From: Halarchaeum rubridurum
GTDB lineage: Archaea; Halobacteriota; Halobacteria; Halobacteriales; Halobacteriaceae
DNA: 64,000 nt
Direction: 5' to 3'
Assembly (NCBI RefSeq): GCF_014647115.1
Contig: NZ_BMOO01000003.1
Span: 186,001-250,000 of the forward strand
The notes under the pieces are model-generated. The model saw nothing but the letters and a program-made list of their open reading frames with translations, searched no databases and was not told the DNA's origin. A program made the translations under genes and the position numbers. Numbering within the stretch: position 1 is the first letter of the stretch; each line of letters starts with the position of its first letter. Positions 37,969-53,247 of this stretch are shown here, one piece after another.

Positions 37969-40794
37969 ATGTCCACGGACGACGCCGACGACGCGGCGGT
38001 CGGGAACGCGGGGGGCCCGACCGACGACGTCGACGGTGCGACCGCCGTCGAGGAGTCGACGGCGGACGACGGCCCACGCGTCGCCAAGGACGAGTACACG
38101 TGGGCCGACTTCGAGGCGGAGTATCGCGGGGAGGACGAGGAGGCCCTCGACCCCGCCGACTACCTCGGGTTCGAACGCGACGACGTCGACGGCGTCCTCG
38201 CAGCCGGCGGCGACGCCGCAGCCGTCATCGAGTCGGTGGTCGACGAGCGGACGCTCGACGTCGAGTCGGACGTCGACGAGGACGCGTTCTTCTCCGACGT
38301 CCACGGGAACACGACGATGGCGAACCGCTACGACCTCGAGAAGGCGGTCGCGCCGGCGAAGAAGACCCACTTCTCGGAGGTCGAGCGCTACTGGGTGAAC
38401 AAGCCCTACGCGTTCGTCGTTCTCTTCCACTCCGAGAAGGAGAACGAGATGAAGTACTACCTCGTCGAGCCCTATCGGAACGCCGTCGAGGACGACCTCC
38501 AGGAGTTCCTGACGGGGAAGCTCCGCACCGCGATCAAGTATTCGAGCGGCGACGTCGCGGCCGAGGGGACGATGGACGAGCGTCGCGCGGTCATCGAACG
38601 CCAGACCCGCGACCTGCTCGAACGCTACGACATCTACGCCGAGACCCGCGGGGGCCCCTCGGCGGCAGAGCGTCTCCGGGAGCTCGTCGAGACCCTCACG
38701 GGACAGGGCGAGGCGGCCGACGACGTCCCGGTCACCGAGCGGCTGCGCTCGCTGGTCGACCGCGGGACGGACGGGTCGAGCGGCGGAGCGAACGACGAGG
38801 CGAATAACGGTGGGCCGAGCGGAAGCGAGGGCGGCGAGACGAGCGACGGGGAAGCGGAGGCGAACGAGGAGGCGGGCGAAGACGCGAGCGACGCGGCGGG
38901 GAGCGATGCCGGGTCGAACGGTGGCGACGAGGGCGGGACGGGCGCGACCGGCACCGACGTCGACTCCCGCTCCGCGGCCGACCGCCTCCGCGACGCCCTC
39001 GACGGCGACGAGGACGCCTCGCCGCTGGAGCGCGTGAAGGGGCTGTTGGGGGGCGGCGAGGACGACGAGACGTCGGTGGAGGACGCGGACGAAGCGGAGA
39101 CTGAGTCCGGGCCACCGACGGCCCTCGACGGCATCGCGGCGCGCCCCGAGCCCGCGGTGTTGGCGGAGGACACCGACACGCTCACGCAGTACCAGGTGGA
39201 GAAACTCCTCTACTACCTCAAGCGGGACTTCATCGGTTACGAGCGCATCGACGGCATCAAACACGACGTGAACGTCGAGGACATCTCCTGCGACGGCTAC
39301 AACTCCCCGGTGTTCGCGTACCACTCCGACTACGAGCAGCTCATCACGAACGTCTACCACGGCAAGGAGAGCCTCGACGACTTCGTCGTGAAGCTCGCCC
39401 AGCGCTCCGGGAAGGGTATCAGCAAGCGCCAGCCGCAGGTGGACGCGACGCTCCCGGACGGCTCGCGCGCCCAGCTGACGCTCGGCCAGGAGGTCAGCGA
39501 CCACGGGACGAACTACACGATACGGCAGTTCAAGGACGTCCCGTTCACGCCCGTCGACCTCATCAACTGGAAGACGTTCTCCTTGGAGGAGATGGCGTTC
39601 CTCTGGCTCTGCATCGAGAACAACAAGAGCCTCATCTTCGCGGGCGGCACCGCCTCCGGGAAGACGACGAGCCTGAACGCCGTCTCCCTGTTCATCCCGT
39701 CGAACGCGAAGATCGTCTCCATCGAGGACACCCGGGAGGTCGAGTTGCCCCAGCGCAACTGGGTCGCCTCCGTCACCCGGCCCTCGTTCGGCGAGGACGA
39801 GAAGGGGGACATCGACGAGTTCGACCTGCTGGAGGCCGCGCTCCGCCAGCGCCCCGACTACATCGTCATGGGCGAGGTGCGCGGTGAGGAGGGCCGGACG
39901 CTCTTCCAGGTGATGAGCACCGGTCACACGACGTACACGACGTTCCACGCGGACAACGTCGGCGAGGTCCTCAAGCGCTTCACGACGGAGCCGATCAACG
40001 TCTCGAAGACGCTGTTCACCGCCCTCGACCTCGTCTCGATTCAGGCGCAGACGCGCGTGAACGGCCGGAAAGTGCGTCGTAACCGGAACATCACGGAGAT
40101 AAACCGATACGACGCCGAGAACGACGAAATCAACGTCAGCGACGTCTTCCAGTGGGAGCCCGAAGGCGACGAGTTCCGACAGCTCACCGACTCGAACACG
40201 CTCGACGAGATTCAGTTCGACCGCGGGTGGTCTCGCGAGCGTCTCGAACGCGAGATATTCGAGCGCCAGGTCGTCCTCGCGTATCTCGTGCGCAACGGCC
40301 TCAGCGAGTACACCGAGGTCGCCGCGACCCTCCAGGCGTACATCGCGGACCCCGACACCATCCTGACGCTGCTGGCGAACGACGCGCTCACGGAGAGCCT
40401 CGCGGACCTGCGCGGGATGGAGTCCGTCCTCATCGACGTCGACCCCGAGAAGGAGGAGATGGTTCCCCGGCCCGACCCGACCGAGGACGTCTACGAGGAG
40501 GCCGGCGAACTCCTGGAGCGCGCGGAGGGCACCCTCTTCGAGGAATACCGCGGCGAGGAAGCCCCCGACATCAGTTTCGCGCTCTCCGAGGCGGCCGCGA
40601 GCGCCGCCGACCAGGACGTCGTCGTCGACGACAGCGGCGAGACGCCAACCATCGAGGCCGCGGGCGAGGACGCGGAGGGGTCGCGCGACGCCGAAGCCGA
40701 CGGCGGCGACCCGTCCGCGGGTGACGACGCGCCGGGCGACGCATCGGACGACGCACCGGACGACGGAACGGGTCGCACAGGGTCCGACGAATGA
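37969..40794 (+). CDS. Type IV pilus/archaellum-type secretion ATPase with acidic linker insertion
   Basis: 941 residues, far longer than usual (about 550). The N-terminal part (ERYWVNKPYAFVVLFHSEKEN) and the ATPase core (ISCDGYNSPVFAYHS; Walker A GGTASGKTT at 559-567; Walker B IVMGEVRGEEG; HADN) match archaeal PilB/FlaI/TadA ATPases, and align with the shorter paralogue at 51520-53139. Between them, about residues 226-404, lies a Gly/Ser/Asp/Glu-rich insert absent from that paralogue, bearing four similar short helices. A second Asp-rich tail ends the protein. It powers pilin assembly in the cytoplasm with the protein at 40791, whose start overlaps the stop (ATGA). Confidence 0.9.
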   Translation: MSTDDADDAAVGNAGGPTDDVDGATAVEESTADDGPRVAKDEYTWADFEAEYRGEDEEALDPADYLGFERDDVDGVLAAGGDAAAVIESVVDERTLDVESDVDEDAFFSDVHGNTTMANRYDLEKAVAPAKKTHFSEVERYWVNKPYAFVVLFHSEKENEMKYYLVEPYRNAVEDDLQEFLTGKLRTAIKYSSGDVAAEGTMDERRAVIERQTRDLLERYDIYAETRGGPSAAERLRELVETLTGQGEAADDVPVTERLRSLVDRGTDGSSGGANDEANNGGPSGSEGGETSDGEAEANEEAGEDASDAAGSDAGSNGGDEGGTGATGTDVDSRSAADRLRDALDGDEDASPLERVKGLLGGGEDDETSVEDADEAETESGPPTALDGIAARPEPAVLAEDTDTLTQYQVEKLLYYLKRDFIGYERIDGIKHDVNVEDISCDGYNSPVFAYHSDYEQLITNVYHGKESLDDFVVKLAQRSGKGISKRQPQVDATLPDGSRAQLTLGQEVSDHGTNYTIRQFKDVPFTPVDLINWKTFSLEEMAFLWLCIENNKSLIFAGGTASGKTTSLNAVSLFIPSNAKIVSIEDTREVELPQRNWVASVTRPSFGEDEKGDIDEFDLLEAALRQRPDYIVMGEVRGEEGRTLFQVMSTGHTTYTTFHADNVGEVLKRFTTEPINVSKTLFTALDLVSIQAQTRVNGRKVRRNRNITEINRYDAENDEINVSDVFQWEPEGDEFRQLTDSNTLDEIQFDRGWSRERLEREIFERQVVLAYLVRNGLSEYTEVAATLQAYIADPDTILTLLANDALTESLADLRGMESVLIDVDPEKEEMVPRPDPTEDVYEEAGELLERAEGTLFEEYRGEEAPDISFALSEAAASAADQDVVVDDSGETPTIEAAGEDAEGSRDAEADGGDPSAGDDAPGDASDDAPDDGTGRTGSDE

Positions 40795-42812
40795 GCCTCG
40801 GCGACACGGGATACAGTTCGTCGGACGCGCTCGGGGACGCCTTCTTCCCGCTCTACGAGTGGCTCTTCGACGATTCGAGCGACTTCGTCGCCAACGTCGA
40901 GACGAAACTCGCGGAGGCGCGCCGCGACGAGACCGTCGAGTTGTTCCTCTCGCGCGCGCTCGGCGTCGGTGCCATCGTCGGCGTCCTCTTCTGGGTCCTC
41001 GGCACGCTGCTCGGCTGGGTGCTGTTCATGATGGTCATCAGCACCGACACCATCATCGGGCTCTACATCGCCAACGACGCGCTGCTCGCGTTCATCAACG
41101 CGGTCAAGGTCCCGGCGTTGATCGTCCTCACCGGCCTCGTCTTCGGGAGCATCGGGTTCGCCGCGGGGTTCGGCGGCCTCGTCGGCGTCCCCTACATGCA
41201 GGCCGGCGAACGCAAACGCGAGATCAACATGCTGCTCCCGGACGCCATCGCGTTCATGTACGCCCTCTCGATGGGCGGGATGAACCAACTGGAGATACTC
41301 TCCGCGATGGCGAAGGCCGACGACACGTACGGCGAGGTCGCCCTGGAGTTTCGCAGCATCGTCCAGGAGACGGAGTACTTCGACACGGACTACCGGAGCG
41401 CGGTGCGCAACCGCTCGATGGAGACGCCGTCGGACGAACTCGGGCAGTTCCTCACGGACATGCTCTCCATCGTCAACAGCGGGGGCGACATGACGGACTT
41501 CCTCTCCGACAAGAAGGACAAACACATGCGGACGGCGAAACAGCAACAACAGCTCACCCTCGACACCCTCGAGCTCTTCGGCGAGATGTACATGACGCTC
41601 TCTCTGTTCCCGCTCCTCCTCATCATCATCCTCGTCATCATGAGCATGATGGGGGACTCGAAGACGACGCTCCTCTACGGGACGGTGTACGCGCTCATCC
41701 CGCTGGTCGGCGTCGGCTTCCTCGTCCTCGTCTCGACCGTGAAGGAGGACGAACCCGGCGACGGCTACCTCCGCCTCGACGAGAGCGACGCCTCCTCGAC
41801 GTCGCGCGAACCCGGGCTCTTCGACCTCGGCCTCATCGAGCGCTTCCGCGGGGAGGGCGCGCTCTTCGAGCGCATCTACAGCCGCGAGGGGACGCACGAG
41901 GCGAAGTGGCTGCTCACGCACCCACACCTGTTCTTCAAGCGCCACCCGCTCTACACGCTCGGGCTCACCGTCCCGGCCGCGCTCGTCATCCTCGGGCTCG
42001 CCGTCGCGCAGGGGACGGCACCGACGAGCCTCGACCGGATGCAGGCCAACCCCATCGCGGGGACGTTCGTCTGGGTCTACCTCCCGCTCTACATCGTCTT
42101 CATCCCGCTCGCGGCCTTCCGGTTGTGGAACCTCCGCTCGCGTCGCCGCGTCGTCAACAACCTCTCGGACGACCTCCGGAAGCTCTCCTCGGCGAACGAC
42201 ACCGGCCTCACCCTCCTCGAATCCATCAAGACGGTCTCCGAGACGTCCTCGGGGAAGCTCGCCGAGGAGTTCCGCGTCATCCACGCGAAGGTGAACTACG
42301 GGACGAGCCTGCGCGACGCGCTCGTCGAGTTCAACAACAAGTACCACATCCCCCGCCTCGCGCGCACCGTCAAGCTCGTCAGCAAGGCCCAGGAGGCCTC
42401 CAGTCAGATTTCGGCGGTGCTCACGACGGCCGCACAGTCGTCCGAGACGCAGGACGACCTCGAACGCGAACGCAAGTCCCGCACCCGGATGCAGATCGTC
42501 ATCATCATCATGACCTACCTGACCCTGCTCGCCGTCATGGCCATCCTGAAGGTGAAGTTCCTCGACGTGATGGCGGGGCTCGCCACGCAGGCCAGCGGCG
42601 GCGCGTCGTCGAGCGCGGGCGGCGGCAACATGAGCTTCGGGGCGAGCATCGACATCCAGATGATGAACATGATGTTCTTCCACGCCGTCACGATTCAGGG
42701 CATCCTCTCCGGGTTCATCGCGGGGTACATCCGCGACGCCGACCTCCTCTCGGGCGTGAAGTTCGCCATCGTCCTGCCGACCGTCGCGTTGCTCGTCTTC
42801 GCGTTCATCTGA
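40791..42812 (+). CDS. TadC/FlaJ-like (type II secretion F family) pilus platform protein
   Basis: 673 residues with two repeats of the T2SSF fold. Cytoplasmic helical domains (LPDAIAFMYALSMGGMNQLEIL; LRKLSSANDTGLTLLESIKTV) are separated by membrane pairs, with a further helix group at the C-terminus (GFIAGYIRDADLLSGVK). The N-terminus has an additional membrane region (about residues 45-130). It is the membrane platform that couples the ATPase to pilin assembly. It overlaps the ATPase by ATGA and is followed 2 nt later by the first prepilin-like gene. Confidence 0.9.
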   Translation: MSLGDTGYSSSDALGDAFFPLYEWLFDDSSDFVANVETKLAEARRDETVELFLSRALGVGAIVGVLFWVLGTLLGWVLFMMVISTDTIIGLYIANDALLAFINAVKVPALIVLTGLVFGSIGFAAGFGGLVGVPYMQAGERKREINMLLPDAIAFMYALSMGGMNQLEILSAMAKADDTYGEVALEFRSIVQETEYFDTDYRSAVRNRSMETPSDELGQFLTDMLSIVNSGGDMTDFLSDKKDKHMRTAKQQQQLTLDTLELFGEMYMTLSLFPLLLIIILVIMSMMGDSKTTLLYGTVYALIPLVGVGFLVLVSTVKEDEPGDGYLRLDESDASSTSREPGLFDLGLIERFRGEGALFERIYSREGTHEAKWLLTHPHLFFKRHPLYTLGLTVPAALVILGLAVAQGTAPTSLDRMQANPIAGTFVWVYLPLYIVFIPLAAFRLWNLRSRRRVVNNLSDDLRKLSSANDTGLTLLESIKTVSETSSGKLAEEFRVIHAKVNYGTSLRDALVEFNNKYHIPRLARTVKLVSKAQEASSQISAVLTTAAQSSETQDDLERERKSRTRMQIVIIIMTYLTLLAVMAILKVKFLDVMAGLATQASGGASSSAGGGNMSFGASIDIQMMNMMFFHAVTIQGILSGFIAGYIRDADLLSGVKFAIVLPTVALLVFAFI

Positions 42813-42814
42813 CG

Positions 42815-43252
42815 ATGACCCGGAACACCCGAGACCGCGCGCAGACGACGCTCGACTTCGCCGCCGGGGTGAGCGTCTTCCTCCTCACCGTGATATTCGT
42901 CTTCGCGTTCGTCCCCTCGCTGCTCGCGCCGGCCACCGCGCCGGGAGCCGGCAACGGCGTCGTCGCCGACCGTGTCGCCGACGACCTCGCGCGGGACGAA
43001 CTCGCGACGGAGACCCCCTACGAACTCTCCGGCCCGCCCACCGACGGGGCGCTCGCGGCCGCGCGCTCGAACGTCTCCGAGACGCTCCCGCCGGGGACGT
43101 TCCTCAACCTCACGCTCCGAACCGCGAGCGCCGGCCGGGTCGTCGCCGCCGACGGCCCGACCCCGTCCGTGGACGCGCCGACGACCGCCTCCCGGCGTGC
43201 CGTCACCGCGCCCGACGGCACGACGTACGAACTCCGGGTGGTCGTCTGGTGA
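42815..43252 (+). CDS. Prepilin-like protein 1 (class III signal peptide type)
   Basis: 145 residues. The N-terminus MTRNTRDRAQTTLDF followed by AAGVSVFLLTVIFVFAF resembles archaeal class III signal peptides (K/R-G/A before Q-x-S/T-L-E/D-F), which PibD cleaves before the Q. The rest is a soluble domain outside the membrane. I recall a related Pfam group in the DUF7284-DUF7289 range, unchecked. It starts 2 nt after the platform gene and its stop overlaps the next start (GTGA). Confidence 0.75.
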   Translation: MTRNTRDRAQTTLDFAAGVSVFLLTVIFVFAFVPSLLAPATAPGAGNGVVADRVADDLARDELATETPYELSGPPTDGALAAARSNVSETLPPGTFLNLTLRTASAGRVVAADGPTPSVDAPTTASRRAVTAPDGTTYELRVVVW

Positions 43253-43848
43253 ACGCCGCGGACGGCCCCGAACGCGGGCAGGCGCACACCCTGGAGAGCG
43301 TCATGGCGGCACTCCTCGTCGTCTCCGCCGTCATCATCGCCGTCCAGATGACCACGACGCCACCGTTGCTCGGCTCGACCGCGAACCAGCACGCCGGCCA
43401 GCAGGACCGCGCGACGGTACAGGGCGTCTTCGCCGCGAGCGACGACGGCGAGCTCCGGGACGCGGTGCGGTACCGAAACGAGACCGGCGACCCCGCGGAC
43501 CCGCTCGAACGACCGTACGGGGGCGCGGGGCCGACAGGCGACCTCCGGTTCCTCGACCGGCTGAACGAGACGCTCGCGGACCGCGGCGCGGCGTACAACG
43601 TCCGGTTCGTCTACCACGAGGACGGCGAGCGCCGCGTCGTCCGGTTCGTCCACAACGGCGAGCCCGGCGACGCCGCCGTCACCGTCCGGCGACCCGTGAC
43701 GCTCTACGACCACGACCGCACGCTCCCCACCAACGGAACCGGGGAGGCGCTCGGCGCGGCCGACCCGGCGTACTTCGTGTCCGACACCGACCCGGACGGA
43801 GAAGTGTACGCCGTCGTCACCGTCGAGGTGGTCGTGTGGCGCGTCTGA
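43249..43848 (+). CDS. Prepilin-like protein 2
   Basis: 199 residues. RGQAHTLESVMAALLVVSAV contains the R-G before Q pattern and a Glu six residues on, then a helix to about residue 38. The extracytoplasmic region contains RFLDRLNETLADRG and several beta-type stretches. It starts with GTG overlapping the previous stop. Assignment as a minor pilin is an inference from position and N-terminus. Confidence 0.73.
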   Translation: MNAADGPERGQAHTLESVMAALLVVSAVIIAVQMTTTPPLLGSTANQHAGQQDRATVQGVFAASDDGELRDAVRYRNETGDPADPLERPYGGAGPTGDLRFLDRLNETLADRGAAYNVRFVYHEDGERRVVRFVHNGEPGDAAVTVRRPVTLYDHDRTLPTNGTGEALGAADPAYFVSDTDPDGEVYAVVTVEVVVWRV

Positions 43849-44300
43849 TGGGCGACGACCGCGGTGCGGCGACCGCGCTCGGCTACGTCCTCAACATCAC
43901 GGTCGCGCTCCTGCTCGTCACCGGCCTGCTCATCGCCGTCACCGACTACGTCGACCGGCAGCGCCAGGACGCCGTTCGTGGCCAGCTCGCCGTCGTCAGC
44001 GACCGCCTCGTCGCGGACCTCGCAGCCGCCGACCGGCTCGCCGGAACCGCCGACGCCGGGGGCGTCACCGTCCGAAGCGACGCCCCGGCTCGCGTCGTCG
44101 GCCGGACGTACACGATACGCGTCTCGCACGCCGACGGCGTGACGCGCGTTCGTCTCGCCGCACCGAGCGAGAACGTCGTCGTGACGCGGACCCTACACAC
44201 GGACCGCGACGTCGTAAACGCGACCGTCACCGGGGGCGACGTCGAGATAACGACCCGGGGGGCCGCCGGCGACGGGCTACGGGTGGTCAGCGATGACTGA
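43848..44300 (+). CDS. Prepilin-like protein 3
   Basis: 150 residues. MGDDRGAATALGYVLNITVA runs into one helix (LLLVTGLLIAV), with R-G five residues from the start as in prepilins. The soluble part is beta-rich (VRSDAPARVVGRTYTIRVSH). The start ATG shares one base with the previous TGA. It is much like proteins of other haloarchaeal pilus operons in layout. Confidence 0.73.
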   Translation: MGDDRGAATALGYVLNITVALLLVTGLLIAVTDYVDRQRQDAVRGQLAVVSDRLVADLAAADRLAGTADAGGVTVRSDAPARVVGRTYTIRVSHADGVTRVRLAAPSENVVVTRTLHTDRDVVNATVTGGDVEITTRGAAGDGLRVVSDD

Positions 44301-45012
44301 GCGCGGCGTGAGCGACGCCGTCGGGTTCGTCCTCATCTTCGCGCTCATCATCACGTCCGTCGGCGTCATCTACACCGCGGGGCTCACGGGACTGCAGGAC
44401 GCCCGCGACGCCCAGCGGCTCTCGAACGCCGAAACGGCGTTCGACGCCATCGACACGACGGCGAACGACGTCGTCTACCGTGGCGCGCCCTCCCGGACGG
44501 TCGGCGTCGGCCTCGCCGGCGCGACGCTCGGCCCCGGCGACGACGTCCGAATCACGGTCAACGGGTCGGAGAGGAGCGTGCACGCGACTCTGACACCGCT
44601 CGTCTACCGATACGAGGACAGCCGGTTCGTCTACGTCGGCGGCGCGGTGCTCCGCTCGGACGGCGCCGACGCGGTGGTGCTCGACGACCCCGACGTCCGC
44701 GTCGCGCCCGGCGGCGGTCGCGCCCTCGTTCCCGTCATCAACACGACCGCCACGGGTGGGACGGTCGGCGGGCGGACCCGGGCACGCGTGTCGTTCGCGG
44801 CCCGTGGCCCGGGCACACGCGGTGTCACCGTACTCGACGGGCCCGTCACCGTCACGGTCGAGACGCCACGCGCCGACGCGTGGTCCCGGTCGTTCGCGGA
44901 CGTCGAGGCCTGCACCGACGTCTCGATGCCGACGAGCGAAACCGCCAGATGCACGCTCGACGGTGAGTCCGCCGTCGTCTCACGGACCGACGTGACCGTC
45001 CAAGTCGAGTGA
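44293..45012 (+). CDS. Prepilin-like protein 4
   Basis: 239 residues. MTERGVSDAVGFVLIFALII is the pattern closest to canonical archaeal pilins (RG before VSxxIG), followed by a helix and a 210-residue ectodomain with a disulfide candidate (EACTDVSMP, ARCTLDG). It overlaps the previous gene by 8 nt and ends the operon. A role as a tip or minor pilin is inferred. Confidence 0.75.
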   Translation: MTERGVSDAVGFVLIFALIITSVGVIYTAGLTGLQDARDAQRLSNAETAFDAIDTTANDVVYRGAPSRTVGVGLAGATLGPGDDVRITVNGSERSVHATLTPLVYRYEDSRFVYVGGAVLRSDGADAVVLDDPDVRVAPGGGRALVPVINTTATGGTVGGRTRARVSFAARGPGTRGVTVLDGPVTVTVETPRADAWSRSFADVEACTDVSMPTSETARCTLDGESAVVSRTDVTVQVE

Positions 45013-45191: not shown

Positions 45192-45221
45192 CCCGTTTTC
45201 CGACGCAGTCGTGAAAACGGG
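45192..45221 (-). terminator. Inverted repeat with T4 tract at the end of tRNA-Arg
   Basis: CCCGTTTTC and GAAAACGGG form a perfect 9-bp inverted repeat over a 12-nt loop. On the minus strand the T4 run starts directly after the tRNA 3' end, a normal archaeal tRNA termination signal. Confidence 0.5.
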
Positions 45222-45290
45222 CGTGGCGGGACTCGAACCCGCGATCTAGCGGTTAGGAACCGCTCGCCGTATCCGCTTGGCCACACGCCC
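45218..45290 (-). tRNA. tRNA-Arg (anticodon CCT)
   Basis: Folds as a full cloverleaf: acceptor GGGCGTG/CACGCCC, 3-bp D-stem GCC/GGC, anticodon stem AGCGG/CCGCT with loop TTCCTAA (anticodon CCT, decoding AGG), 5-nt variable loop, T-stem GCGGG/CCCGC with loop TTCGAGT. The discriminator is G. There is no intron and no encoded CCA. Confidence 0.95.
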
Positions 45291-45348
45291 TGCGGCGGTG
45301 GCTACGCGACTGGGGATGAAAAACGGTTGCTCTTCGTCGCGGCGGCGT

Positions 45349-45645
45349 TTACGCGTTCTTCGACGTCGTGCTCTCGGTGTCGGAGTCGATGGACTCCGTC
45401 TCGACGTCGGTGTCCGTGGTGACGTCGGCGTCGCCCTCCGTCGTCGCGCCTCCCTCGCGGACCTCTTCGAGTTCGTTCTCGATCTCCTCGCGGCCGCGCT
45501 GGAACTCGCCCATCGCCTGCCCGGTGGAGCGTGCGAGTTTGGGAATCTTGTTCGCGCCGAAGAGCAGTACCGCGATGAGCAGGACGAGCGCCAACTCCAT
45601 CCCGCCGGGGAAGCCGCCCAGGAACAGTGGCGTACTGGTGACCAT
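45349..45645 (-). CDS. tatA: Twin-arginine translocase TatA
   Basis: 98 residues. An N-terminal helix (LALVLLIAVLLFG) is followed by the hinge and amphipathic helix FGANKIPKLARSTGQAMGEF, then a long acidic cytoplasmic tail. TatA forms the pore-forming oligomer of the Tat pathway, which is the main export route in haloarchaea and is needed by the Tat lipoproteins in this window (1, 14717, 21614). The ATG at 45645 has TTATAACG-type sequence about 30 nt upstream. Confidence 0.9.
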   Translation of the reverse strand: MVTSTPLFLGGFPGGMELALVLLIAVLLFGANKIPKLARSTGQAMGEFQRGREEIENELEEVREGGATTEGDADVTTDTDVETESIDSDTESTTSKNA

Positions 45646-45739
45646 CTCTACCACACCGTAGCAAACTGCTCGTTATAGGCCTTTTGCTCGTTGTACCGAG
45701 AGCGCAACCGTCATACCGGATGCGTTCGAAACGGCGCGT

Positions 45740-49404: not shown

Positions 49405-51516
49405 TCAGGCGAAGAAGAGGAAGATGCCGTAGGCGACGGCGAGCATGATGAAGGCGTGTTTCGCGCCCGAGCGGATGTCCGTCTCGCTCATCTGCCCGGC
49501 GACGAACCCCGAGCAGACGGCCTGGACGAGGGCGGTGTGGAAGAAGAGGAGGCTGTAGGCGGCCTTCTTCTCGTCGGTGAGTTGGCCGATACTCCCGATG
49601 GACTGGCCGGCCGGGCCCGCGAACTGGTCGGCGGTCGGAATCGCGGGCACGAAGATGGTGTCGAGGGCGACGATGATGGCGATGAAGACGAGGAAGGCGA
49701 GGTAGATGACGACGAGGTAGGTGACGAGTTCGTTCCGGCGCTCGCGCTTGAGGCGCTGAGTCGATTGGGCCTCGTCGGCGGCGATGCGGAGGACGGGCGC
49801 GAGGTCACTCGTCGCGCTCATCGCGTTCGTCGTGAGCGTGACGACGCGCGTGATCATCGGCGTGCGGACGCGGGTCTCGAAGCGCTTGAGCGCGGCCTCG
49901 ACGGGCGCGCCCCAGCGGACGTCCGTCCAGGTTCGGTCGACCTCCTCGTTCAGGCCGCCGAGGTCGCCGTTGGCGACGCGCTCGATGCTGGCGACGATGG
50001 GCATCCCGGCCTCGTTCGTGCTGGCGAGGCGATCGAGGAAGTCCGGGACGGCGCGCTCGATTGCCTCCAGTCTGCGTTTGCGTATCTCCCAGACGACCGC
50101 GAACGTCCCGATGAGGAAGAGGAGCGCCTGCACGACGGCGTCGTCGAAGACGGGGAGGAGGCGTTCGAGGCTCGCGGGGTCGACGAGCGCGAGGAGCGAG
50201 AGGTCGCGCTGGCCGAGGGTGAGCCCCCAGCGGACGGCGATGGAGAGGACGGCGAGCGGGGCGGTGACGACGAGGAGCCAGACGGGCCGTTCGGTTATCG
50301 TCTCGACCGGATGCATGAGCGCGTAGCGGACCGGCGCGAGGTCGTTGTAGGCGGCGAGTCGGCCGTGGTTGCGCGCGGCGGTCTCGACGTCGTCCGATTC
50401 GACCGCTCGCGCTGCGACGCCGCCGTCGGCCGCGGTGCTGACCTCGTCGGGCGTCCGCGTGACGTAGTCGTAGCGGACTTCGGCCTCCTGCTCCCCGTCC
50501 CCGCCCTGGGTGTCGCTCGTTATCGTGTCGAGGTAGACGATGAACCCCAGCGTCCCCAGCGGGAGGATGAGGTAGGTGAACGCCCGGAGGAAGCCGAGCG
50601 TCCCGCCGGAGACGAGGCCGATGACGACGAGGATGGTGATGAGGAAGAGCGGGCCGGCGACGAAGACGGTGACGTACCCCTCGGCGAGCGTCGAGAGGAG
50701 TTCGAGGAAGCGCTGTTGTTCGCTCTCGGCTTCCTCCTTGTACTGGTCGTACTCGTTGCGGAGGAAGGCGCTGACGCTCTGGCCGGATTGGAGGACGCTC
50801 GTGAGGTTCTCGACGAACTCCTGGAGGTCCTCGCTCGGGGTCCGCCGGCCGGTCCGCCGGAGGGCGTTGATGACGTCCGCGCCGAAGAGGTCGATGTCGC
50901 GGACGGTGACGCCGAACTCGGCGGCGGTCTCGCCGTAGACGTGCTGGTTGCCCGAGAGGATGCGCAGTATCTTCGTGAACCCCATCCCGGAGCGCGAGAG
51001 CGCGAACATGAACGCGACGTTGCGCTGGAGGGTGTTCTCGATGAAGCGCTCGCGCTCGCCCGCCTTGTACTGCGGGAGGAGCCAGCGGTACTGGTAGGTG
51101 CTCACGCCCGCGAGGAGGCCGACGGTGGCACCGGCGAGTGCGACGACGGCGAACAGTTCGAGCGCGGTGAACGACGCGGCGGTCGGGACGGCGGCCTCCG
51201 TGAGTTGCGCGTCGAGCACGTCGAGGAGGAGGAGACCCGCGGCGCCGAGGTAGAGCCCGAGGATGCTGCCGACGACGACTGCGACGGCCGTGTAGAGGTA
51301 GGTGACGGCGGCGTAGGCGGCGTACGGCCGCGAGACGTGGGCGGACCGGAGCGACCGAGCGTGTCCCCGGTTCACGTGCTCGCGCGAGCGGGCGAGCGAC
51401 CCGAACAGCGCGATGGCGAGGCGGCGTACCGCCCGCGTGAGCGCGTCGCTCAGCGGGACGCAGGCGAGACAGACGAGCAGGACGCCGCCGACGACGAGCG
51501 GGAGATACGCCAGCAC
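49405..51516 (-). CDS. TadC/FlaJ-like pilus platform protein, second locus
   Basis: 703 residues, the same two-repeat T2SSF organisation as the protein at 40791 (RNVAFMFALSRSGMGFTKIL; LDRLASTNEAGMPIVASIERV), plus an additional N-terminal membrane region. It starts 3 nt after the ATPase stop (genes run 51520-53139 then 49405-51516 on the minus strand). The two proteins are clear but divergent paralogues. No pilin genes are adjacent, so its substrate must be encoded elsewhere. Confidence 0.88.
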   Translation of the reverse strand: MLAYLPLVVGGVLLVCLACVPLSDALTRAVRRLAIALFGSLARSREHVNRGHARSLRSAHVSRPYAAYAAVTYLYTAVAVVVGSILGLYLGAAGLLLLDVLDAQLTEAAVPTAASFTALELFAVVALAGATVGLLAGVSTYQYRWLLPQYKAGERERFIENTLQRNVAFMFALSRSGMGFTKILRILSGNQHVYGETAAEFGVTVRDIDLFGADVINALRRTGRRTPSEDLQEFVENLTSVLQSGQSVSAFLRNEYDQYKEEAESEQQRFLELLSTLAEGYVTVFVAGPLFLITILVVIGLVSGGTLGFLRAFTYLILPLGTLGFIVYLDTITSDTQGGDGEQEAEVRYDYVTRTPDEVSTAADGGVAARAVESDDVETAARNHGRLAAYNDLAPVRYALMHPVETITERPVWLLVVTAPLAVLSIAVRWGLTLGQRDLSLLALVDPASLERLLPVFDDAVVQALLFLIGTFAVVWEIRKRRLEAIERAVPDFLDRLASTNEAGMPIVASIERVANGDLGGLNEEVDRTWTDVRWGAPVEAALKRFETRVRTPMITRVVTLTTNAMSATSDLAPVLRIAADEAQSTQRLKRERRNELVTYLVVIYLAFLVFIAIIVALDTIFVPAIPTADQFAGPAGQSIGSIGQLTDEKKAAYSLLFFHTALVQAVCSGFVAGQMSETDIRSGAKHAFIMLAVAYGIFLFFA

Positions 51517-51519
51517 GGC

Positions 51520-53139
51520 TTACGCTCCGTCGAGGTGTCTATCGACGCGTTCGACGACGGCTTCGGGGTCCGCGTAGTACTCGTTGACGAGCGCGGTGAA
51601 CTCCCGGTAGTCCGTGACGTCGCGCTCGACGAGGTAGCGCAGGACGCGTTTGCGGTTGCGGAGTTCGCGCAGGAGTTCGGAGCGCCCCCACCCGCGGTCG
51701 TCGCGAATCTCGTCGAGGACGGCGCTGTCCTGCTGGATGAAGCGGTCGCTCCCGGGGTCCCACTCGAACGCCGTCGAGTAGTCGAGGTCGCCGGTCCGCT
51801 GGTCGATTCCCTCGATTTCGGCGATGACGCGGTTGCGACGGACGCGCTCGTCGCCGACGTACGTGAGCGTCTGGACGCAGAGGATGTCGAGGCTCTGTAT
51901 CATCGCCCGCGGGACGTTGATGGGGTCGTTCTCGAGTCTGTTGATCGCGGTCTGGACGCTGTCGGCGTGCATCGTCGAGTACGTCGTGTGCCCGGTGTTC
52001 ATCGCCTGGAACAGCGTCATCGCCTCCTCGCCGCGCACCTCGCCGACGATGATGTACTCGGGGCGGTGGCGCAGCGCCGAGCGCAGGAGGTCGTACATCG
52101 TGATGTCCGAACTCTCCCCGAGGCTCTCGCGCGTCACGGAGGAGAGCCAGTTGTCGTGGTAGAGGGTGAGCTCGCGGGTGTCCTCGATGGTGAGGACCTT
52201 CGAGCGCGGCGGGACGAACATCGAGACGGCGTTCATCGACGTCGTCTTCCCGGAGGCGGTACCGCCCGCGAAGAGGAGGCTCTTGTTGGACTCGATGGCG
52301 AGCCAGAGGTACGCCATCTGGTCGAGGTCGAACGTCTCGTAGTCGACGAGCGTCGCGGGCGTGAACGGCTCCTCGGAGTACTGGCGGATGGTGAACGCCG
52401 ACCCCCGGGGCGTGACCTCCTCGCCGAGTGCGAGTTCGGCGCGCGAGCCGTCCGGGAGCGTCGTCTCCGTCACGGGGTCCCCGACGCTGATGTGGCGCCC
52501 GGACTGCTGGGCGAGGCGCACGACGAAGTTGTCGAGCTCCTCGCGCTTGTAGGAGATGTTCGTCTCGATGTCCGTGTAGCGGTCGTGGTAGACGAACAGC
52601 GGTATCTCGTAGCCGTCGCAGGAGATGTCCTCGACGTGGTCGTCGTGCATCACCGGGTCGAGCTGTTCGTACCCCTCGAAGGCCCGGTGGAGGTAGTAGA
52701 AGAGCCGGTGGAAGGTCTCGGGGGTGACGTCCGCGCCGTACTCCTCGAGGAGCGACCGGGTCCGGTCGCGGAGGACGGCCTCGGCCTCCTCGGGGTCGTA
52801 CTCGGCGTCGTAGACGAGCGTGTCGCGGACGTCCGCGAAGAGGTTCGAGAGGAGGTCGCGCTCGACGTCGTCGAGGTCGGGTTCGACGACGTGGTAGCGG
52901 TGTTCGTTCGCCTCGTCGTCGTACCCGACCCAGACGAACGCGTAGGGGGCGTTGACCCAGTAGCGGTCCACCTCATCGTACCCTTCGAGGCCGTCGAAGG
53001 TGACGAGCGGACCGTGTTCCGCCGGCCGATAGTCCTCGGCGGGCACCGTCGAGCCGCGGAGCATCTCGACCGTCCGGGCGAGACGCCACCGCAGGCGCTC
53101 GACGCGGCCCGAGACCGAGTCTGGGGGGTGGCTGGACAT
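51520..53139 (-). CDS. Type IV pilus/archaellum-type secretion ATPase, second locus
   Basis: 539 residues of usual length: RYWVNAPYAFVWVGYDDEAN, the linker passing directly into FHRLFYYLHRAFEGYE, ISCDGYEIPLFVYHD, Walker A GGTASGKTT (about residue 290-298), IIVGEVRGEEAMTL and MHADSV. It is homologous throughout to the ATPase at 37969, without the 175-residue acidic insert. The ATG at 53139 (SSHPPDSVSG) is chosen; a T-rich GCTTTTTACC lies about 39 nt upstream, giving a short leader. A longer frame reaches 53226. Confidence 0.9.
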   Translation of the reverse strand: MSSHPPDSVSGRVERLRWRLARTVEMLRGSTVPAEDYRPAEHGPLVTFDGLEGYDEVDRYWVNAPYAFVWVGYDDEANEHRYHVVEPDLDDVERDLLSNLFADVRDTLVYDAEYDPEEAEAVLRDRTRSLLEEYGADVTPETFHRLFYYLHRAFEGYEQLDPVMHDDHVEDISCDGYEIPLFVYHDRYTDIETNISYKREELDNFVVRLAQQSGRHISVGDPVTETTLPDGSRAELALGEEVTPRGSAFTIRQYSEEPFTPATLVDYETFDLDQMAYLWLAIESNKSLLFAGGTASGKTTSMNAVSMFVPPRSKVLTIEDTRELTLYHDNWLSSVTRESLGESSDITMYDLLRSALRHRPEYIIVGEVRGEEAMTLFQAMNTGHTTYSTMHADSVQTAINRLENDPINVPRAMIQSLDILCVQTLTYVGDERVRRNRVIAEIEGIDQRTGDLDYSTAFEWDPGSDRFIQQDSAVLDEIRDDRGWGRSELLRELRNRKRVLRYLVERDVTDYREFTALVNEYYADPEAVVERVDRHLDGA

Positions 53140-53247
53140 CGGGACTCTACCGGACAACCACACCGCCGGCAGGTAAAAAGCTGTCCGCACGGGGACTCGC
53201 GGCGTCACGTTCAAGTCGTGGGACACCGTACCGCAGGACGTACTCAG

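Follow-up and report, generated by a model that had tools for sequence, protein, structure and literature searches.

In a 64,000-nucleotide stretch of the Halarchaeum rubridurum genome (the window), four prepilin-like genes follow an assembly ATPase and a membrane platform protein of the PilB4-PilC4 type. The locus falls into a known group, the PilB4 class of Makarova et al. (2016; PMC4858521), and is therefore not a new machine. What is added here is the definition of a six-gene prepilin set, invariant residues close to the mature N-termini, and the displacement of two members, gX and gL, to other parts of the genome. The favoured reading, held at a probability of about one half, is that these prepilins form a heteromeric minor-pilin (tip or priming) complex with variable, adhesin-like gX and gL subunits, which is loaded by PilB4-PilC4. 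The PilB4 system and its pilins are kept by nearly all Halobacteria sampled, and the six-protein set is found in near-constant order across salt-loving and methane-making archaea.

The ATPase (37969..40794, + strand, 941 aa) is of the VirB11 family (Pfam T2SSE 2e-30; PilB3_C 9e-10). Its T2SSE core spans residues 484-696 and is flanked at both the N- and the C-terminal end by long acidic extensions. The next gene encodes the PilC4/TadC-type platform protein (40791..42812, + strand, 673 aa; T2SSF 2e-26), which shares 62-72% identity with PilC of 17 other cassette loci. The prepilin-like genes g1 to g4 are on the same (+) strand. g1 (42815..43252, ATG start, 145 aa) belongs to DUF7287 (PF23958, 1.2e-33), g2 (43249..43848, GTG start, 199 aa) to DUF7288 (PF23959, 2.3e-51), g3 (43848..44300, ATG start, 150 aa) to DUF7266 (PF23928, 1.6e-19) and g4 (44293..45012, ATG start, 239 aa) to DUF7289 (PF23960, 5.1e-51). 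An earlier note on this DNA had described four consecutive genes at 42815-45012 that overlap or nearly touch, and these coordinates are exact: the overlaps are 4 bp (g1/g2), 1 bp (g2/g3) and 8 bp (g3/g4). The gap between the PilC stop (42812) and g1 is two bases, and all other neighbours overlap by 1-8 bases. This tight packing suggests that PilB4-PilC4 and the four prepilin genes are read as a single transcript.

Beyond g4, at 45218-45654 (- strand), a tRNA-Arg (anticodon CCT) and a TatA-like gene occupy the place where many relatives carry gL. Some 5 kb past the cassette, at 49405-53226 on the - strand, there is another ATPase/TadC pair; it is of the PilB3-PilC3 type, and no prepilins of its own were seen; in genome G003 a second PilC is likewise found about 11 kb away. 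On contig C4 of the window's genome (L093:3591-10402), a third ATPase/TadC pair stands ahead of a run of prepilin-like genes, among them DUF7289-type, DUF7263, DUF7262 and DUF7261-like members.

All four cassette proteins carry a short leader ending in [KRDE][GA] followed by a hydrophobic helix, as expected of archaeal prepilins. The leaders (predicted cleavage at the slash) read MTRNTRDRA/QTTLDF in g1 (mature start 42842), VNAADGPERG/QAHTLES in g2 (43279), MGDDRG/AATALGY in g3 (43866) and MTERG/VSDAVGF in g4 (44308). The R-[GA] motif and helix that the earlier note had reported for all four can therefore be read in each protein, and the Pfam matches are above cut-off. The mature proteins are predicted to have 136, 189, 144 and 234 aa, and their ectodomains were computed at about 108-206 aa, in keeping with the 100-210 residues of differing length first described. 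A FlaFind-like test (the motif, a start codon 5-30 codons upstream and an uncharged hydrophobic stretch) was applied to all 319 stop-to-stop open reading frames of at least 100 aa in the whole window. It was passed by five, four of which are g1-g4, and the PibD-type sites are kept in homologues. The genome contains one match to the prepilin-peptidase family PF01478.

The residues that follow the cleavage site are also conserved. In Halobacteria cassettes, Gln+1 and Asp+5 of g1 were found in 63/63 copies, as were Gln+1 and Glu+6 of g2 (63/63). Across the 80 named Halobacteria loci the acidic residue was present in 79/79 copies of g1 and 77/79 of g2, and in all 22 non-halobacterial copies g1 and g2 have the acidic residue at the same place. 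The nearly exceptionless Asp+5 of g1 and Glu+6 of g2 resemble Glu5 of bacterial pilins. g4 has an acidic residue at +3 in 55/55 scored Halobacteria copies, while g3, whose N-terminus is PilA-like, has no conserved acidic residue there. The window proteins fall below the cut-off of the PilA family Pilin_N (PF07790) and match their DUF families alone; among homologues, weak Pilin_N matches were obtained for 5 of 41 g3 (best 0.0025) and 6 of 41 g4 (best 0.0057) proteins. In profile comparison, g3 and g4 share the N-terminal helix alone. Common ancestry of g1 and g2 is not claimed, as a value of 85% obtained with mis-set g2 N-termini fell to 49% once the alignment was corrected.

A scan of the genome collection with PilC was used to gather the named loci. 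The sampled genera repeatedly show the order PilB-PilC-g1-g2-g3-g4, and the four genes follow the ATPase/platform pair in this order in 79 of the 80 named Halobacteria loci, some of them interrupted by contig ends. The sole exception is a locus whose contig stops just past PilC (L176). Genomes of other families than the window's mostly have an interval of about 400-1400 bases between g2 and g3, which encodes a fifth prepilin, gX. The mature gX starts with Q[LIV].L, has an invariant Asn at position 22 and matches DUF7261 weakly; its mature length ranges from about 120 to 470 aa in Halobacteria. Facing g4 in many loci is a sixth prepilin, gL, a long protein related to DUF7289 whose profile matches that of g4 at 99.8%. 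Both gX and gL are highly variable in size and in what they carry at the C-terminus. In 18 loci outside the typical Halobacteria set, from other Halobacteriota families, the genes are normally colinear (g1-g2-gX-g3-g4-gL) and sometimes present in tandem copies, although a few of these loci are truncated or one of the genes is not recognisable in them. Tandem cassette copies were found in L056, L091, L114, L117 and L120. The cassette of four proposed earlier thus stands as regards the four genes and their order, but the conserved unit comprises five to six prepilins. Judged from the sequences, the six genes are inherited as a unit, because the cassette occurs in tandem copies and because gX and gL, where they have left the cassette, are retained elsewhere in the genome and are absent from the two same-family genomes without a cassette.

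This retention is seen in the window's own family, which includes Halobacterium. In the window and 11 same-family loci, at most about 30 bases separate the g2 stop from the mature start of g3; the cassette lacks gX, which is encoded elsewhere in the genome. The named loci with such a cassette come from Halobacterium, Halospeciosus and two metagenome-assembled genomes. With a gX profile, a single copy was found outside the cassette in the window's genome (C5:203512-204378), as was a copy in each of the 11 other same-family genomes carrying the cassette; two same-family genomes without the cassette (G010 and G018) gave no match to the gX profile, and gL was likewise not found in them. The gL of the window's genome also lies outside the cassette (C5:162278-164083; L112:4231-6096, + strand). 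The gX protein of this genome (L092:6589-8379, - strand) has 596 aa in its mature form; about 290 of these are additional residues at the C-terminus, with a weak FG-GAP-like match suggesting a propeller-like binding domain. The gX of a relative (L096:7438-9210, + strand) has a similar C-terminal extension of about 290 aa.

The cassette is widespread in Halobacteria, where the Pfam family of g2 was found in 185 of 194 genomes and that of g1 in 184. Nine of the ten genomes without g1 also lack g2, and the tenth has a marginal g2 match. Seven of these ten have no PilC near the level of true PilC4 copies (>1000 bits), and in another (G157, locus L104) PilB4 and PilC4 are broken into pieces. In G044 and G073, PilB4-PilC4 is kept and just one large prepilin, RG/VSPVVGFVLIFALI, stands behind it in place of the cassette. 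This 520-630 aa prepilin was located behind PilB4-PilC4 at L102:8014-9636 and L103:7607-9556 (both - strand), and G157 is related. From the state of these ten genomes, motor and cassette usually occur together, but the motor can take a different prepilin. In seven loci (L039, L048, L053, L062, L070, L071 and L078) a cassette has no adjoining motor in the sequence examined around it. Across the phylum sample, g2 is present in 151 of 296 genomes. PilA-type pilins, which occur in 261 of the 296 and in many copies, were found in 151/151 genomes with g2 and in 110/145 without it, whereas the cassette subunits differ from one another, each being encoded once per cassette. As support for a coupling of the two, this co-occurrence is only suggestive, because PilA-type pilins are so common, the genomes are related and the tables were compared by eye. 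PilA pilins are also present in the cassette-less genomes G010, G018, G014 and G044, and therefore the cassette is not essential for them.

Structures of two of the mature window proteins, g2 and g4, were predicted with AlphaFold2, using homologues in the input. The g2 model (pLDDT 88) has N-terminal helices followed by a helix and four strands, and that of g4 (pLDDT 95) has one 57-residue helix followed by an all-beta ectodomain; as predicted, both are of pilin architecture in outline. Foldseek searches of the two models against the PDB returned nothing at E<=0.001, and therefore the g2 and g4 ectodomains are not assignable to a known minor-pilin fold such as those of GspHIJK or FimU/PilVWX. 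Weak matches to ribosomal-protein and reovirus-sigma1 structures were treated as noise. Profiles of g2, g3 and g4 found nothing relevant among the sequences of solved structures. Moreover, PHROG 34755 matches g1 and PHROG 31921 matches g2, with a weak PHROG match for g4. These two PHROGs may stem from prophage calls in archaeal genomes, and a viral origin was dropped as a search of phage records and viral contigs with g2 gave no match.

The earlier note had proposed that the four proteins could be PibD substrates forming a minor-pilin or tip complex. What the sequences show is the gene order, the processing motifs, the invariant residues, the joint retention of the six genes and their co-occurrence with PilA-type pilins; the assembly, the stem position, the tip location and the function are our inference. 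In the proposed mechanism, PibD would remove the 5-10-residue leaders of the cassette subunits, whose N-terminal helices would then pack together to give a short stem of unlike subunits. In g1 and g2 a buried acidic residue would serve much like Glu5 of bacterial pilins, while gX and gL, with their large variable ectodomains, would be placed at the end of the stem as binding subunits. The stem would prime and then cap a pilus, probably a PilA-type fibre, and in the window's genome gX and gL would be supplied from other loci. The tip complex is favoured because the subunits are unequal and single-copy, the block is duplicated as such, its order is fixed, gX and gL are variable, PilA pilins are constant companions, and there is a precedent in Myxococcus. 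Against it, the cassette has its own ATPase and platform, which would be needless for a mere accessory to PilB3-driven PilA pili, PilA pilins also occur in cassette-less genomes, and the folded ectodomains of g2 and g4 match no known minor pilin. The six-gene set, its invariant residues and its distant members provide concrete targets for co-expression, co-prediction and mutation. If the tip complex is real, the priming and binding specificity of archaeal pili would become directly testable.

A less probable reading is that the locus encodes a complete, separate type IV pilus, in which the fibre would be built from g3 (or g1) by PilB4-PilC4, with the remaining prepilins as minor pilins. It agrees with the published model of the PilB4 locus, which was predicted to have its own major pilin, arCOG03926, distantly related to PilA (Makarova et al., 2016; PMC4858521), and with the presence of a dedicated ATPase and platform in the same operon. 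g3 would be a suitable candidate, being small (144 aa when mature), PilA-like at its N-terminus and weakly matched by Pilin_N among its homologues. However, no cassette gene is amplified in the manner of the PilA genes, and some cassettes stand without an adjoining motor. Moreover, Haloferax volcanii without pilB3-C3 shows no pili despite expression of pilB4-C4 (PMC4371748); under the conditions used this is evidence against long fibres made by PilB4, though not against short ones.

The same absence of visible PilB4 pili would fit a short pseudopilus that works as a piston for secretion or surface transport, like the pseudopilus of type II secretion, as would several unequal prepilins with large ectodomains. 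This is nonetheless improbable, as neither a secreted substrate nor any other secretion component was seen beside the cassette in the window, and gX and gL more closely resemble displayed binding domains. To our knowledge, archaea have no outer membrane that would require a piston, and we know of no secreted substrate of the cassette. It is least credible, and by a long way, that the processing sites are coincidental and g1-g4 are ordinary single-span membrane proteins. The literature found contains no interaction, localisation, mutant or experimental processing data for the cassette proteins, but their sites hardly vary across well over a hundred homologues, the genes stand behind pilus motors in Halobacteria at large, and just 1 of the 315 other window reading frames passes the same FlaFind-like test.

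Among known systems, the closest is the PilB4 pilus class (clade 2 archaeal type IV pili) described for H. volcanii (HVO_1160), for which extra N- and C-terminal domains of the ATPase are the published mark in Halobacteria (PMC4858521). The H. volcanii locus and that of the window have in common the extended VirB11-family ATPase, its TadC/PilC partner and their own FlaFind-positive pilins. Named Haloferax loci have the same families in the same order, but with gX between g2 and g3, whereas gX and gL lie outside the cassette here, the displacement of gX being common to the Halobacterium family. According to Makarova et al., the same pilin set goes together with ordinary members of the ATPase family in other genomes, and the minor pilin arCOG02911 likewise marks PilB4-type systems (PMC4858521). 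g3 and g4/gL are likely the counterparts of arCOG03926 and arCOG02911, respectively. The alternative prepilin found behind PilB4-PilC4 agrees with the modular evolution proposed by these authors. A literature search for DUF7287, DUF7288, DUF7289 and DUF7266 or HVO_1154-1158 found no paper naming them. As for expression, PilB4 was detected by proteomics in H. volcanii cells from one growth medium only (PMC7305310), and pilB4-C4 is down-regulated in Haloferax gibbonsii during HFTV1 infection (PMC12542753).

The PilA1-6/PilB3-PilC3 adhesion pili of H. volcanii share the motor and pilin superfamily with the cassette, and the N-termini of g3 and g4 are PilA-like; the PilB3-C3 operon contains no pilins (PMC6491452), whereas those of the window are inside the operon. 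The Epd pilins of Methanococcus maripaludis, which are EppA substrates, have a conserved Gln+1 and an acidic +5 residue (PMC4371748), as does g1; the single PF01478 match of the window's genome may be of the PibD or the EppA type. In Myxococcus xanthus, four minor pilins and the propeller protein PilY1 make up a priming and tip complex, several such clusters can occur per genome, and PilX lacks Glu5, like GspK of type II secretion (PMC7541494). The cassette is similar in its clustered, unequal putative minor pilins and possibly propeller-bearing partner. The likeness is one of analogy, with no sequence or significant fold match found, and gX is itself a prepilin, whereas PilY1 is not. By this analogy it may be suggested, tentatively, that a six-subunit tip or priming complex conserved across the phylum, with an acidic residue near +5 in two subunits and exchangeable binding domains in two, is the archaeal counterpart of the minor-pilin/PilY1 complex, and that the dispersed parts in the Halobacterium family would let gX, with its possible propeller domain here, change independently of the stem.
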